Below are positions 34,759 through 38,792 of a stretch of 64,000 nt of DNA, piece after piece. Position 1 is the stretch's first letter; each line of letters begins with the position of its first letter. The stretch comes from Fervidicoccaceae archaeon. GTDB lineage: Archaea > Thermoproteota > Thermoprotei_A > Sulfolobales > Fervidicoccaceae. The notes beneath the pieces are model-generated. The model saw only the letters and a list, made by a program, of their open reading frames with translations. It searched no databases and was not told where the DNA came from. The stretch spans positions 1-64,000 of the forward strand of contig JAVYOA010000002.1 of the NCBI GenBank assembly GCA_038734945.1, in the 5' to 3' direction. The translations under genes were made by a program, and so were the position numbers.

Positions 34759-35007
34759 GTGAAAGAAATGTCTGAATACAAGGGAAAGAAGAGGCCGATC
34801 GATGTAATCAAGATTTCAGATGCTGAAATACCAATAACGGAAGATCTATTGAAGATACTGAAAAAATATGTGATGACCCAGATGACACTTGAGGAACTTG
34901 CTAGAGAGCTTGGTCTGGAAAGTTGGGAGAAGGCATATGAGTTCATCAAAGCCGTGCCTGCCTGGCTGATATGGACTCCGTTCACGATGTGGGAAATAAC
35001 AGAGTGA
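34759..35007 (+). CDS. Small conserved-looking archaeal protein, function unknown
   Basis: An 82-residue, mainly helical protein, or 79 residues if the second Met is used. A helix-turn-helix-like segment TQMTLEELARELGLESWEKAYEFIKAV is followed by a Trp-rich end PAWLIWTPFTMWEIT. Similar short proteins lie next to DNA repair genes in some crenarchaea, but I cannot name the family. It overlaps the endonuclease III frame by 37 bp, which speaks for co-expression. Confidence 0.6.
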   Translation: MKEMSEYKGKKRPIDVIKISDAEIPITEDLLKILKKYVMTQMTLEELARELGLESWEKAYEFIKAVPAWLIWTPFTMWEITE

Positions 35008-35699
35008 TTTTTGACTTGGTAGTTGACGGCAAAGGTGGAGGCTATCTGTCATCGCTATCAGAAGCTTTGAAAAAGTATGAAATTCCCAAGGAGAGCGCTT
35101 TCATTGTTTTTAATGTCATCCAGAAGCACCCGAACAATCCTTTTATTACGCTAGTCAGCATCATTCTTTCCCAGAACACCAGTGACAGAAATGCTATGCT
35201 AGCTCTTGAGAGGATGGAAAAATACGGAATGACATCGCCGGAGGCTATATTGAAAGCTGGATACCAAAAAGTACTTGAAGCTGTTTATCCGTCCGGAATG
35301 GGCAAAATAAAAGCGAGAAGAATTCTTAACATATCCCAAATTGTCTTAGAAAATGGGGATTTTCTGGAAAAGGTCTGCGAGTTGGGGGAAAAAGGAAAAG
35401 AGCTTCTAATGCAGCTTGAAGGCGTTGGTTTAAAGACGGCAGATGTCTTCATGATTTCCTATTGCAATTATCCTTCATTTCCAGTCGATAGGCACATTGC
35501 TAGAATTACGGAGAGAATTGTTGGAAGAAAGATGAAGTATGAGGAAATTTCGAATTTTTGGAAGGAGAAATTGGGAGCATCTGACTATAAAATAGCGCAC
35601 ATGAAGCTGATAGCTATTGGAAGGGATATTTGCAGAAAAAGAAACCCGAAGTGCGGAATGTGCCCGCTCAGGGAATTCTGTGCTTCGAAGAGGGGGTGA
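34971..35699 (+). CDS. nth: Endonuclease III-family DNA glycosylase/AP lyase
   Basis: Up to 242 residues. The helix-hairpin-helix LEGVGLKTADVF carries catalytic Lys155, the FPVDRHIARI loop carries Asp173, and four cysteines at 221, 228, 231 and 237 give the C-x6-C-x2-C-x5-C iron-sulfur motif. The enzyme removes oxidised pyrimidines (or mismatched T/U in some archaeal relatives) and cuts the abasic site. The ATG at 34971 overlaps the preceding small gene; a GTG at 35004 is an alternative. Confidence 0.93.
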   Translation: MDSVHDVGNNRVIFDLVVDGKGGGYLSSLSEALKKYEIPKESAFIVFNVIQKHPNNPFITLVSIILSQNTSDRNAMLALERMEKYGMTSPEAILKAGYQKVLEAVYPSGMGKIKARRILNISQIVLENGDFLEKVCELGEKGKELLMQLEGVGLKTADVFMISYCNYPSFPVDRHIARITERIVGRKMKYEEISNFWKEKLGASDYKIAHMKLIAIGRDICRKRNPKCGMCPLREFCASKRG

Positions 35700-36231
35700 A
35701 AGTCACATAGAGGAAATCAGAGGTATTCTAATAACAACAAGAACAAACAGAGAGAGAAGTGCAGAAAATGAGCTTGGAAGCTTGCTAATAAGCAGAGGAA
35801 TACCCTTCAGGATGGGGGCCGAGCTTGGTAATGGAGCAGTCCTCTTTTCAACAGAATTTCCATTTAAAGCATATAGGGCAGTAATTTCTTCTCTGCTCTC
35901 TGAACCGATGAGAGTTTATCCTCTTGTTAAGCTGAAGGACCTGGAGAGAATTCTATCATTGGTGAAAATAGATAAGATGAGATGCTATTTGAGGAAAAAA
36001 ATGGAAATCTGCAATGATATTGAGAATTATGCAAGGAAAATAATTGTAGGTAAGAATTTGGATAATACTCAGAGCTCTCTACATGTGATGCTGCACATAC
36101 AGGGATTGGGAGTATTTTATGGATATTCCCCCATTCCAAGAGATTGTGAGAGGTACGAAATGATTTTAAAGATGAGCAACCTTCGGGGATTCTGTTCTTC
36201 ATATGCAGATAAAGTATCAGCCTTGCTGTAA
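35680..36231 (+). CDS. THUMP-like RNA-binding protein (Tan1-like), tentative
   Basis: About 183 residues from GTG 35680. IRGILITTRTNRERSAENELGSLLISRG, by landmarks ILITTRTNRERSAENEL, resembles the opening strand-helix of THUMP domains, and VMLHIQGLGVFYGYSP could be a later strand. Tan1-type THUMP proteins help acetylate cytidine in tRNA. The assignment rests on pattern resemblance only. No ATG is available; the frame overlaps the end of nth by 20 bp, so translational coupling is likely. Confidence 0.4.
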   Translation: MLRRGGESHIEEIRGILITTRTNRERSAENELGSLLISRGIPFRMGAELGNGAVLFSTEFPFKAYRAVISSLLSEPMRVYPLVKLKDLERILSLVKIDKMRCYLRKKMEICNDIENYARKIIVGKNLDNTQSSLHVMLHIQGLGVFYGYSPIPRDCERYEMILKMSNLRGFCSSYADKVSALL

Positions 36232-36268
36232 AGAGGAGAAATGGCGGCGGGGCCCCGCTCTTGAAAAG

Positions 36269-36333
36269 TAGCGGGGGGTGGATTCGAACCACCGACCTCG
36301 GGGTTCCTCCGAGGCCTCAGGCCCCTTATGAGC
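36269..36333 (-). tRNA. 3' half of a trans-split initiator tRNA-Met(CAU)
   Basis: Minus strand. It encodes bases 31-73 of the initiator tRNA: G31, loop CTCATA, a 22-nt intron (36305-36326), A38, anticodon-stem strand CCCCG, variable loop AGGTC, T-arm GGTGG-TTCGAAT-CCACC, and acceptor strand CCCCGCT with A73. The matching 5' acceptor, D-arm and CGGG are missing here and are found at 38731-38761. A leader at 36334-36361 contains GGCGGTAGCCC, exactly complementary to the trailer of the 5' half. A TATA-like TTTTAA at 36381-36386 would start transcription right at that leader. Confidence 0.88.
36305..36326 (-). other. Canonical 37/38 intron inside the 3' tRNA half
   Basis: 22 nt between A37 and A38. 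The BHB is regular: core CTCA/GGAG with one A-G mismatch, bulges TAA and GAA each cut after their second base, and an internal hairpin GGGGCC-TGA-GGCCTC. Removing it gives the invariant initiator loop CTCATAA above the CCCCG strand. Confidence 0.82.
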
Positions 36334-36361
36334 TTCGCGGGTTCGGGGCTACCGCCACTGC
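36334..36361 (-). promoter_or_regulatory. Leader of the 3' tRNA half, pairs with the 5' half trailer
   Basis: Read on the minus strand it runs from about the predicted start site to the AA just before G31. GGCGGTAGCCCCGAACC (36340-36356) pairs with 38763-38780 over 16 pairs with one mismatch and one bulged T. CGCG (36336-36339) makes the 4-bp BHB core with bases 25-28 of the 5' half. Confidence 0.85.
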
Positions 36362-36393
36362 TTTATATGCATGGAAAGGATTAAAAGGTTTTA

Positions 36394-36900
36394 CTATTTG
36401 AGAACTGTGTCATTCAAAACAGATTCAGCCCATTTCCTTCCATAGAACCTTGAGACTTCCTCGAAATTTTCCTCTACGAAAATCCTGAGGGCTTTTCTGC
36501 TCAGGACATCTGCTGCTTCGTTGTTCTCCCTTGGAATCCACTCGATTTTATATGACTTGAAATTTCTGAGAAGATTGATAGATTTGTTGTAAAGGGGGAT
36601 CAGCCTGGGTGCCTTTACTCTGTATTTGCCAATGAGTTGCTTGATTACGAGCTGGGAGTCTCCTCTTATGGTAATATCTTTTTCAGAAAGATCGCTTTCA
36701 ATAATTAGCTCCAGCCCTCTTATCAGAGCTGTGTACTCAGCAACGTTGTTTGAAACATTGTCTCCTCTAAATCCAGCACCTACAATTCCAAATTCTTCTT
36801 TCAGAACCTTTTTATTCTCGAAGATGACAACGCCGTATGTAGCTATCCCTCCAGGATTGATAGGCTCACACAGACCATCAAAATATAAAAGGAGACCCAA
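36394..36900 (-). CDS. rnhA: Ribonuclease HI-like protein
   Basis: A 168-residue RNase H fold protein with the four acidic active-site residues in order: Asp8 (YFDGLCEP), Glu55 (NVAEYTAL), Asp81 (RGDSQLVI) and Asp131 (ENNEAADVLS). It hydrolyses the RNA strand of RNA-DNA hybrids, or acts on double-stranded RNA as in some archaeal members. It lies 11 bp downstream of the nitrilase gene and just upstream of the tRNA 3' half, all on the minus strand. Confidence 0.9.
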   Translation of the reverse strand: MGLLLYFDGLCEPINPGGIATYGVVIFENKKVLKEEFGIVGAGFRGDNVSNNVAEYTALIRGLELIIESDLSEKDITIRGDSQLVIKQLIGKYRVKAPRLIPLYNKSINLLRNFKSYKIEWIPRENNEAADVLSRKALRIFVEENFEEVSRFYGRKWAESVLNDTVLK

Positions 36901-36911
36901 GCATTTCCACC

Positions 36912-37733
36912 TTAGAGCTTATAAACCGCAGTGTTTCTCTGCTTCAGCATGGGCAGCTTCCTTCTCACTTCTTCTATTTCGGAAACTTCTATGGTGATTT
37001 CTCTGTATTTTTCCCCTACACCAAGATCGTATATTACTTCTCCCATTGGACCTATGATGGTACTTCTTCCTGTAAAATTCTTTCCATACTGATTTACTAT
37101 AGCTAAGAATATTGTGTTCTCATGCGCTCTGGCCCTCCCCAATACATGCAGAATTTCTTCCTTCATGTCTCCCCTATACCAACCAGAAGGAACGATCACG
37201 AGCTCAGCACCTCCTAGGGCATAAGTTCTGAATAGTTCTGGAAACCTTATGTCATAGCATATTGCTACTGAGATTTTCGTGCCTTTCAGCTCGATTATTG
37301 AAGATGGTGCGTTTCCCGGAAGCATGAATTCGGATTCTCTATAGTCGTAAGCATCAAAGAGATGAGCTTTTCTATATCTCAGCAGAATTTCTCCTTTTGG
37401 ACTGAAAATCACTGCTTCATTATAGACCTTTGGTTTAGAGGCAGGAGTGAAGAGCGTTGCTAAGATGTGGACGCCTAGTTTGCTTGCCAATTCTTTTAGT
37501 GAAGAAGCAAAAGCTCCATCCAATTCTTCTGCCATCATATATATTCTATCTGGTTCATCTCCTGTAGGATTGTACATGAAATACTCTGGAGTAATAATGA
37601 GATCTGCTTCCCTCAAGTTTATTATATTATTCAACTTTTCTATGTTTTTTGCCTTATCCTTAGTGCTTTCCATCTGTACTATGCCAAGAGTTATACTTCT
37701 ATTTTTCATTTTTATTCCCCGAGGAATGTTCAA
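36912..37733 (-). CDS. Carbon-nitrogen hydrolase (nitrilase superfamily)
   Basis: Up to 273 residues; ATG at residue 9 (MKNRSITLGIVQ) may be the real start. The Glu-Lys-Cys triad is visible: Glu50 (IITPEYF), Lys122 (RYRKAHLF) and Cys159 (AICYDIRFPE). The family includes omega-amidase, N-carbamoyl hydrolases and deaminated glutathione amidase, so the substrate amide cannot be fixed. It is cytoplasmic and probably co-transcribed with rnhA. Confidence 0.9.
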   Translation of the reverse strand: MNIPRGIKMKNRSITLGIVQMESTKDKAKNIEKLNNIINLREADLIITPEYFMYNPTGDEPDRIYMMAEELDGAFASSLKELASKLGVHILATLFTPASKPKVYNEAVIFSPKGEILLRYRKAHLFDAYDYRESEFMLPGNAPSSIIELKGTKISVAICYDIRFPELFRTYALGGAELVIVPSGWYRGDMKEEILHVLGRARAHENTIFLAIVNQYGKNFTGRSTIIGPMGEVIYDLGVGEKYREITIEVSEIEEVRRKLPMLKQRNTAVYKL

Positions 37734-37927
37734 AGCTTATTTTTAATTTGATCACTAAGAAAAAATCCTCGAGAATGTATAAATATTATTTGGAAAGCAT
37801 GGAGTCTGATGTCCTCTCTCTCATAAAATATGAAACTTTTAGGTTGTAAATAAGCTAGTAGGGAAATACTTATTATTCCCATCCGATAGAGAAAAAGTTG
37901 TCATAACATAAACGGAAGGTATGAATT

Positions 37928-38389
37928 TTGAACGAAGAAAACGAATCTGAAAGAAATGTAACAAAAAAAGTTATGGAGCTAAAACAAGGCGAAAGCTCCA
38001 TAACAATAAAGGGAAGGGTTCTTGAAGCAAACGAACCAAAAACCATAGAAACGAAGAAAGGGACAAGAACAATAAGTGAGGCAGTTCTAGGCGACGAAAC
38101 TGGTAGAGTGAAGATGACATTGTGGGGAGATAAGGCAGGAAGCATTGAGGAAGGACAGGCTGTGAAGATAACGAACGCATGGACCACTGGATATAGAGGG
38201 AAGGTTCAACTGAATGTTGGGGCTAGCTCAGAAATAACTCAAATTGGAGATGAAGAAGTTCCCAATGCTGAGGAGATCCCCGAATCAGAGCCAGCAGCTC
38301 CTATGGAAGAGAGGAGGGGAGGCTTTGATAGGAGAGGAGGAAGGCGAGATTACAGACAAGGCGGTGGCTTCAGAAGAAGAGAATGGTGA
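37928..38389 (+). CDS. ssb: Single-stranded DNA-binding protein, crenarchaeal SSB type
   Basis: A 153-residue protein with one OB fold (ITIKGRVLEANEPKTIETKKGTR, by landmarks VLEANEPKTIETKKG; AVLGDETGRVKMTLWGDKAG; AWTTGYRGKVQLNVG) followed by an acidic linker and a Gly/Arg-rich tail GGFDRRGGRRDYRQGGG. This layout is that of the Sulfolobus SSB, which coats single-stranded DNA and uses its tail for partners. The start is TTG 37928, because an in-frame TGA lies just before it. It leads a short cluster with the PqqD-like gene. Confidence 0.92.
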   Translation: MNEENESERNVTKKVMELKQGESSITIKGRVLEANEPKTIETKKGTRTISEAVLGDETGRVKMTLWGDKAGSIEEGQAVKITNAWTTGYRGKVQLNVGASSEITQIGDEEVPNAEEIPESEPAAPMEERRGGFDRRGGRRDYRQGGGFRRREW

Positions 38390-38397
38390 GCTGCTAA

Positions 38398-38682
38398 ATG
38401 AGCTATGCGGAAATAAAGGAAAAGAGATTTATGAGAAAGGGAGAAGAAGCAGGAACGAATAACGAGAACTTCTACATTACAGATGAATCTAATGTAACCT
38501 ATGAGCTATCTGCAGCTGTCTATTATGTCTGGAAGCTTGCTGATGGTATCAAGACAGTTGAGGAAATAGTTAAGCAAGCCAGTTCTGAGCTGAATATGCC
38601 AGAAGAAGAGCTTCAAGAACCAATAGCTGTTATCATGCTCAAGCTGCTCGAAAATAATCTTGTTTCAGAAAGCCTTGAATAA
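38398..38682 (+). CDS. PqqD-like small protein (RiPP recognition element fold)
   Basis: 94 residues. FYITDESNVTYELSAAVYYVWKLADGIKTVEEIV, by landmarks YELSAAVYYVWKLADG, fits the PqqD pattern in which a short winged helix follows ELS..A..iW.l.DG..t..ei. In bacteria PqqD-type domains bind precursor peptides for radical SAM enzymes. No radical SAM gene or peptide is next to it; it begins 8 bp after ssb, and in several crenarchaea such free-standing domains exist without known role. Confidence 0.65.
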   Translation: MSYAEIKEKRFMRKGEEAGTNNENFYITDESNVTYELSAAVYYVWKLADGIKTVEEIVKQASSELNMPEEELQEPIAVIMLKLLENNLVSESLE

Positions 38683-38730
38683 AAATATATAAAAACCCTT
38701 GGCCTAATTTTTTTATTGGCGGGGAAAAAA

Positions 38731-38761
38731 AGCGGGGTAGGGCAGCCAGGTAGCCCGCGGG
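38731..38761 (+). tRNA. 5' half of a trans-split initiator tRNA-Met(CAU)
   Basis: Encodes bases 1-30: acceptor strand AGCGGGG, TA, D-arm GGGC-AGCCAGGTA-GCCC, G26 and CGGG (27-30). A at position 1, and the CGGG start of the anticodon stem, are features of initiator tRNA. The sequence does not continue into an anticodon loop; instead a trailer complementary to the leader of the 3' half (36334-36361) follows. Joined to that half, it completes acceptor AGCGGGG/CCCCGCT and anticodon stem CGGGG/CCCCG. A TATA-like AATATATAAAAA lies at 38682-38693. Confidence 0.88.
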
Positions 38762-38792
38762 AGGTGCGTGGGCTACCGCCCTATGATTTTTT
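38762..38792 (+). promoter_or_regulatory. Trailer of the 5' tRNA half and T-rich terminator
   Basis: GGGCTACCGCC at 38770-38780 is the exact reverse complement of 36346-36356. With GGTGCG before it, it forms the long helix that holds both halves together for splicing. TTTTTT at 38787-38792 is a good archaeal terminator, which supports a short separate transcript ending here. Confidence 0.82.

Follow-up and report, generated by a model that had tools for sequence, protein, structure and literature searches.

Two half-genes for an initiator tRNA

The window analysed here, a stretch of 64,000 nucleotides from a Fervidicoccaceae archaeon of heat-loving type (contig JAVYOA010000002.1), carries two half-genes that together make up an initiator tRNA (tRNA-iMet). 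They lie on opposite strands, 2.4 kb apart. The genome from which the window comes (G000) measures 1.34 Mb in nine contigs and is 99.95% complete. It was compared with a sister species (G002) and with three sister genera of the same family (G003, G006 and G007; the G003 genome is closed at 1,319,206 bp), and the 5' half was surveyed first in named genomes and then in the whole order. The half-genes and their signals, including the two strands of a bulge–helix–bulge (BHB) splice motif, are as follows.

38680..38693, + strand: TATA-like TAAAAATATATAAA, predicted promoter of the 5' half (motif score 3.1; TATA box by eye)
38718..38730, + strand: 5' leader, with GGCGGGG at 38718-38724 complementary to the 3' trailer (stem kept in intact and split relatives)
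38731..38761, + strand: tRNA-iMet 5' exon, positions 1-30, AGCGGGGTAGGGCAGCCAGGTAGCCCGCGGG (sequence; 100% BLAST match at a single place in the genome)
38756..38759, + strand: BHB core CGCG, 5' strand, with bulge GGA at 38760-38762, cut after 38761 (same core in cis introns of G003, G006 and G007)
38762..38781, + strand: trailer of the 5' half, AGGTGCGTGGGCTACCGCCC, pairing with the leader of the 3' half (duplex computation; identical in G002)
36380..36393, - strand: TAAAACCTTTTAAT, resembling a B recognition element (BRE) and TATA box, predicted promoter of the 3' half, which fits a start near the leader (motif score 7.9)
36334..36357, - strand: leader of the 3' half, with AA at 36334-36335, core CGCG at 36336-36339 and pairing segment 36340-36357 (duplex and covariation)
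36327..36333, - strand: tRNA-iMet exon, positions 31-37, G CTCATA, anticodon CAU (sequence)
36305..36326, - strand: cis intron at 37/38 in the 3' half (sequence; G003, G006 and G007 also have an intron at 37/38)
36269..36304, - strand: tRNA-iMet 3' exon, positions 38-73 (BLAST)
36246..36252, - strand: CCCCGCC in the 3' trailer, pairing with the 5' leader (leader/trailer stem comparison)

The 31 nt of the 5' exon correspond to canonical positions 1-30, the D-loop having one extra base. The plus strand reads AGCGGGG TA GGGC AGCCAGGTA GCCC G CGGG over 38731-38761 and continues into AGGTGCGTGGGCTACCGCCC. On the minus strand, starting from 36362, AGCAGTGGCGGTAGCCCCGAACC is followed by CGCG AA, the cut, GCTCATA (with the exon 36333-36327), the 22-nt intron (36326-36305) and the 3' exon 36304-36269, ACCCCG AGGTC GGTGG TTCGAAT CCACC CCCCGCT A. 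Joined together, the halves give a complete and perfect archaeal initiator tRNA with A1:U72, the anticodon CAU and a GGG:CCC run of three G-C pairs in the anticodon stem. The initial annotation had proposed such a trans-split initiator tRNA, with the same pairs in its stems; the coordinates it gave are right within a base or two, all of the sequence elements are present and the comparative data agree. ARAGORN and Rfam do not call the split tRNA-iMet in the window, as is expected for a gene that lies in halves.

Leader GGCGGGG (38718-38724, plus strand) and trailer CCCCGCC (36246-36252, minus strand) pair around the initiator tRNA. Much of the order keeps this stem, whether the gene is intact or split, and in one family it shows a compensatory change to GGGGGGC/GCCCCCC.

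The trailer/leader helix and the splice junction

The trailer of the 5' half (38763-38781) and the leader of the 3' half (36357-36340) form a duplex of 16 pairs, 11 of which are unbroken, with an energy of -30.9 kcal/mol. None of 20,000 shuffles reaches this value (mean -14.1, standard deviation 3.3), and the folding check bears out the pairing proposed in the initial annotation. When 17-mers were tested on both strands of the window, the best partner of the trailer after its own antisense was the 3'-half leader. The helix also covaries. In an alignment of the window with five tRNA-iMet loci of relatives that are split around an endonuclease-like gene (HEN30, described below), 99% of the cells are paired and two pairs are changed on both sides, compared with 33-48% in slid controls.

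Next to the helix lies the core CGCG/CGCG (38756-38759 with 36336-36339), flanked by GGA and AAG. Core, bulges and the cut at 30/31 are exact, and they are the same as in the 30/31 cis intron of the sister genera G003, G006 and G007. The motif had been described as canonical. That is too strong a word, since the bases that should make the second flanking helix, towards the tRNA, do not pair, and the junction is therefore a relaxed BHB.

Within the trailer, GGGCTACC (38770-38777) is the reverse complement of the D-arm segment GGTAGCCC (38749-38756), which means that the 5' half, when free, could fold into a competing hairpin.

Uniqueness of the split gene

A BLAST search of the whole genome with the joined tRNA-iMet gives 100% matches only at the two half-loci (E values of 3e-13 and 6e-10), and down to an E value of 10 there is no third place with tRNA-iMet identity. 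The search for an intact initiator gene that the initial annotation had called for hence finds none in the nine contigs of this 99.95% complete assembly. The genome-wide inventory made with a tRNA model contains 41 other tRNAs, two of them with a CAU anticodon (loci L001 and L024). Both have G1:C72 and anticodon stems without the three G-C pairs, and are not initiators; from general knowledge of archaeal tRNAs we take them to be tRNA-Ile2-like and elongator tRNA-Met.

Taken together, these sequence data make it very probable that the window encodes the only initiator tRNA of the genome as two separately transcribed half-genes that are joined in trans. A long transcript spliced in cis is ruled out, the halves being on opposite strands. 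Several points weigh against this reading. The case is known here from DNA sequence, and with nine contigs in the assembly there is a small chance that an intact copy lies between them. The motif derived from the upstream regions of tRNA genes to score promoters is a weak one. On the scale of the best scores in 60-nt stretches of the window, the predicted 3'-half promoter falls between the 95th (6.5) and 99th (8.6) percentiles, whereas the 5'-half promoter has a moderate score at only about the 75th. Finally, the complete split is seen in a single genome of the genus, as the G002 contig ends early.

That the halves are mere remnants, with an intact initiator tRNA hidden in an assembly gap, would be compatible with a genome that is not closed. 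It is nevertheless very improbable given the completeness of the genome and the BLAST result, and in neither half has a paired base, the splice core or the complementary tail been lost. Even less credible is a misassembly in which a normal contiguous gene was broken and flipped. The draft state of the genome and the contiguous gene of the sister genera would allow it, but such an error would not give rise to a long trailer and leader that are complementary to each other, and the contiguous genes of the sister genera lack these. Moreover, the assembly of G002 contains the same tRNA-iMet 5' half and trailer; the trailer is identical up to the end of the pairing segment and diverges two bases later. 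In G002 the trailer is followed by a ferredoxin gene, while ssb lies on the other side with the nitrilase gene one gene further, before the contig ends inside the nitrilase gene, short of the expected place of the 3' half. An assembly break, which the initial annotation had named as a possible refutation, is unlikely because this second assembly shows the same rearranged order around the 5' half.

A proposed trans-splicing pathway and the split tRNA-Gln

The tRNA would be made as follows. Two half-RNAs, with predicted lengths of about 65 and 120 nt and presumably transcribed from the two predicted promoters, would anneal through the acceptor stem, the trailer/leader helix with its roughly 16 pairs and, probably, the leader/trailer stem of 7 bp. 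At the relaxed BHB a heterotetramer of EndA would cut after 38761 and before 36333. The 37/38 intron would come out by a like cleavage, and RtcB would join the ends to give tRNA-iMet. Two EndA paralogue genes (PF01974) and one RtcB ligase gene are present in the genome.

The tRNA-Gln of this genome is also in pieces, with two 5' halves (anticodons UUG and CUG) and one 3' half that they apparently share (loci L165, L166 and L047).

C3:24348-24362, - strand: tRNA-Gln 5' half, anticodon UUG or CUG
C4:17898-17912, + strand: tRNA-Gln 5' half, anticodon UUG or CUG
C9:274216-274249, - strand: tRNA-Gln 3' half, apparently shared by both 5' halves

The two Gln tail duplexes have energies of -36.7 and -35.8 kcal/mol, matched in each case by one of 5,000 shuffles, and pairing between Gln and iMet tails is weak. 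No intact Gln gene is found among the 41 tRNAs called. With tRNA-Gln split as well, trans-splicing seems to be routine in this cell. This second split tRNA goes beyond the initial annotation, as do the inversion and the link to homing endonucleases described below.

Gene order and history of the split

The genes around and between the halves are the following.

34971..35699, + strand: endonuclease III-type gene nth (gene order, domain search)
36394..36900, - strand: RNase H-like gene, between the halves (PF13456, PF00075)
36912..37733, - strand: carbon-nitrogen hydrolase (nitrilase-like) gene, between the halves (PF00795)
37928..38389, + strand: ssb-like OB-fold gene, ancestral left neighbour of tRNA-iMet (gene order, domain search)
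38398..38682, + strand: PqqD-like gene, directly upstream of tRNA-iMet in the window, G003, G006 and G007 (gene order, domain search)

G003, G006 and G007 have a contiguous tRNA-iMet gene with introns at 30/31 and 37/38, to which G006 and G007 add a third in the T-loop. The order in G003 and G006 is ssb, pqqD and tRNA-iMet, followed on the other strand by gene X (the homologue of window gene 35617-36231), nth and a homologue of 34759-35007. G007 likewise has ssb, pqqD, nth and the 34759 homologue close to tRNA-iMet. Gene X and nth are the ancestral right flank of tRNA-iMet and now adjoin the 3' half. The window retains both blocks whole, the left one made up of ssb, pqqD and the 5' half and the right one of the 3' half, X, nth and 34759. 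The right one, however, has been inverted to the opposite side, and the RNase H-like and nitrilase-like genes lie between the two. This arrangement indicates that a single inversion with a breakpoint between the halves separated a once contiguous, intron-bearing tRNA-iMet gene.

Endonuclease-like genes between the halves in relatives

In other families of the order the tRNA-iMet halves are 1.3-1.6 kb apart, mostly with one gene in the gap. A LAGLIDADG-like gene stands beside tRNA-iMet pieces in 18 other genomes and demonstrably between both halves in 16 of these, the contigs of the other two ending early. Two families can be distinguished. HEN30 (about 360 amino acids) accompanies halves cut at 30/31 in nine genomes from four families (E <= 1e-15) and is antisense to the 5' half wherever the latter is on the contig. 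Both halves are on the contig in eight of the nine, G185 having only the 3' half on a cut contig. HEN37 lies in sense between halves cut at 37/38 in nine genomes from three families, with both halves seen in eight and only the 5' half in G177. All 18 matches adjoin a tRNA-iMet piece; this count leaves out one weak match in G114 (E value of 8.6e-6). The tails are complementary in every locus where both are present (-37.7 to -52.5 kcal/mol). G016 and G154 carry their halves on opposite strands, so that these too must be joined in trans.

Both families carry LAGLIDADG-like motifs that score below the Pfam cut-off, and they are distant relatives of each other (hhalign probability 95.9). A search of PDB sequences with the endonuclease profile returned only chance matches. 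With the HEN30 model (mean predicted local distance difference test, pLDDT, of 79) as query, a fold search ranks I-Tsp061I and I-DmoI, its best fold matches, within the first 18. As their E values are only 1e-3 to 6e-2, the modelled likeness to archaeal intron-encoded endonucleases is suggestive rather than strong. The single-sequence model of HEN37 (pLDDT 37) gave no usable structure. I-DmoI and I-Tsp061I are encoded in rRNA introns that are spliced in cis, whereas the gene of the relatives sits in the gap of a split tRNA gene, in the 30/31 class as antisense to the 5' half, and in two cases the halves are on opposite strands; it is absent from the window. HEN30 is broken in three of its nine genomes (G108, G185 and G154), which is what one would expect of a homing element once it is fixed.

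In six genomes (G120, G108, G203, G016, G209 and G069; loci L167 and L168 for the first two) the T-loop is cut too, with a gap of about 700-800 nt. The T-loop gap of G108 holds another LAGLIDADG_3 gene, which makes its tRNA-iMet a putative tri-split gene with two endonuclease genes. In another genus of the window's own family (G004 and G005; loci L098-L101) the tRNA-iMet gene is cut at 37/38; on contig C58 of G005 a gap of 1.6 kb separates the halves, and it is occupied by an antisense ATPase gene (PF01637) and not by an endonuclease. Among viral contigs just two weak relatives of HEN30 turned up, with 30% identity over 133 residues, and this search thus points to no viral carrier.

Does the split in the window descend from an endonuclease-bearing gene?

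There is no LAGLIDADG-like gene between the halves of the window. Neither relatives of HEN30 or HEN37 nor an endonuclease remnant was found in G000, which has no LAGLIDADG match over the cut-off. The trailer, which resembles the 30/31 class, shares the 9-mer GGGCTACCG with HEN30 loci of two other families, and a match as long occurs in 9-21 of 5,000 shuffles. With the cis introns examined it shares at most 4 nt. Because of the shared GGGCTACCG and the covariation of the trailer/leader helix with the HEN30 loci, we lean slightly towards descent of the split from an endonuclease-bearing one, by inheritance or transfer. It would probably share its origin with the 30/31 class of other families, the endonuclease gene being gone here, and may be the scar of such an element. 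A point against this is that most of GGGCTACCG is also the reverse complement of the tRNA-iMet D-arm, and the likeness could be convergent.

Alternatively, an inversion inside an ordinary short 30/31 intron could have split the gene with no homing endonuclease ever involved, the complementarity of the tails being a holdover of the intron stem or regained from it. The short 30/31 introns of the sister genera, which have this core too, a gene order that fits a single inversion and the lack of endonuclease matches in G000 all argue for such an origin, which we regard as somewhat less likely than not, in view of the 9-mer shared with endonuclease-split loci and the poor agreement of the trailer with the cis introns examined.

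Descent from an endonuclease-bearing split would fit a broader scheme, to which we give an even chance: in this order, split tRNA genes would owe their origin and spread to homing endonucleases. Two LAGLIDADG-like families, one at 30/31 and the other at 37/38, would be confined to the space between tRNA-iMet halves. They would copy the cut, the complementary tails and the endonuclease into intact genes and then decay, leaving a permanently trans-spliced essential tRNA as in the window.

Comparison with known split tRNAs

Among the closest precedents is Nanoarchaeum equitans, whose initiator tRNA also comes from two genes with complementary tails and a BHB at the junction (PMC3218864). There the join is at 37/38, the halves are far apart and the phylum is different, whereas the window has a join at 30/31, a distance of 2.4 kb and an extra 37/38 intron. 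N. equitans also splits Glu, Gln, His and Lys tRNAs (PMC3218864 Table 1; PMC4090602). One of its 3' halves is shared by two Glu isoacceptors (PMC4090602), while here it is Gln that shares one. Among the cases listed in PMC3218864, a split tRNA-iMet is known only from N. equitans.

The split tRNA-Lys(CUU) of Staphylothermus marinus and S. hellenicus, from the same archaeal branch, resembles the window in its 30/31 join, its halves a few kb apart and their lengths, 31 nt for the 5' and 43 nt for the 3' half (PMC3218864). It differs in the tRNA concerned, in halves on the same strand and in that no homing endonuclease is reported. The tRNA-Asp(GUC) of Thermosphaera aggregans and Aeropyrum pernix is likewise a recent split by local rearrangement seen from gene order (PMC3218864), but the join is at 37/38, the halves are adjacent and the splitting agent was unknown. 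Mobile or viral elements have been suggested as such an agent (PMC3218864). Our search of the literature, within a library of papers available without subscription, turned up no report of a homing endonuclease in an archaeal tRNA gene or a split tRNA.

Taken alone, the feature in the window is a further split tRNA; what is new is the order-wide link to homing-endonuclease-like genes. There is a long-standing debate on the age of split tRNAs, which may be left over from early tRNA evolution or the outcome of recent breakage, and the splitting agent has been unknown. A homing-endonuclease-like gene exactly in the gap of the relatives suggests how split tRNA genes arise. Across related genera a single essential tRNA occurs as a contiguous gene with a cis intron and as a split gene whose gap holds an endonuclease gene, a decayed one or none, so that both a late origin and a concrete agent can be put to a direct test. 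In the archaeon studied here the trans-split tRNA-iMet seems to be essential, and translation initiation would depend on RNA trans-splicing.
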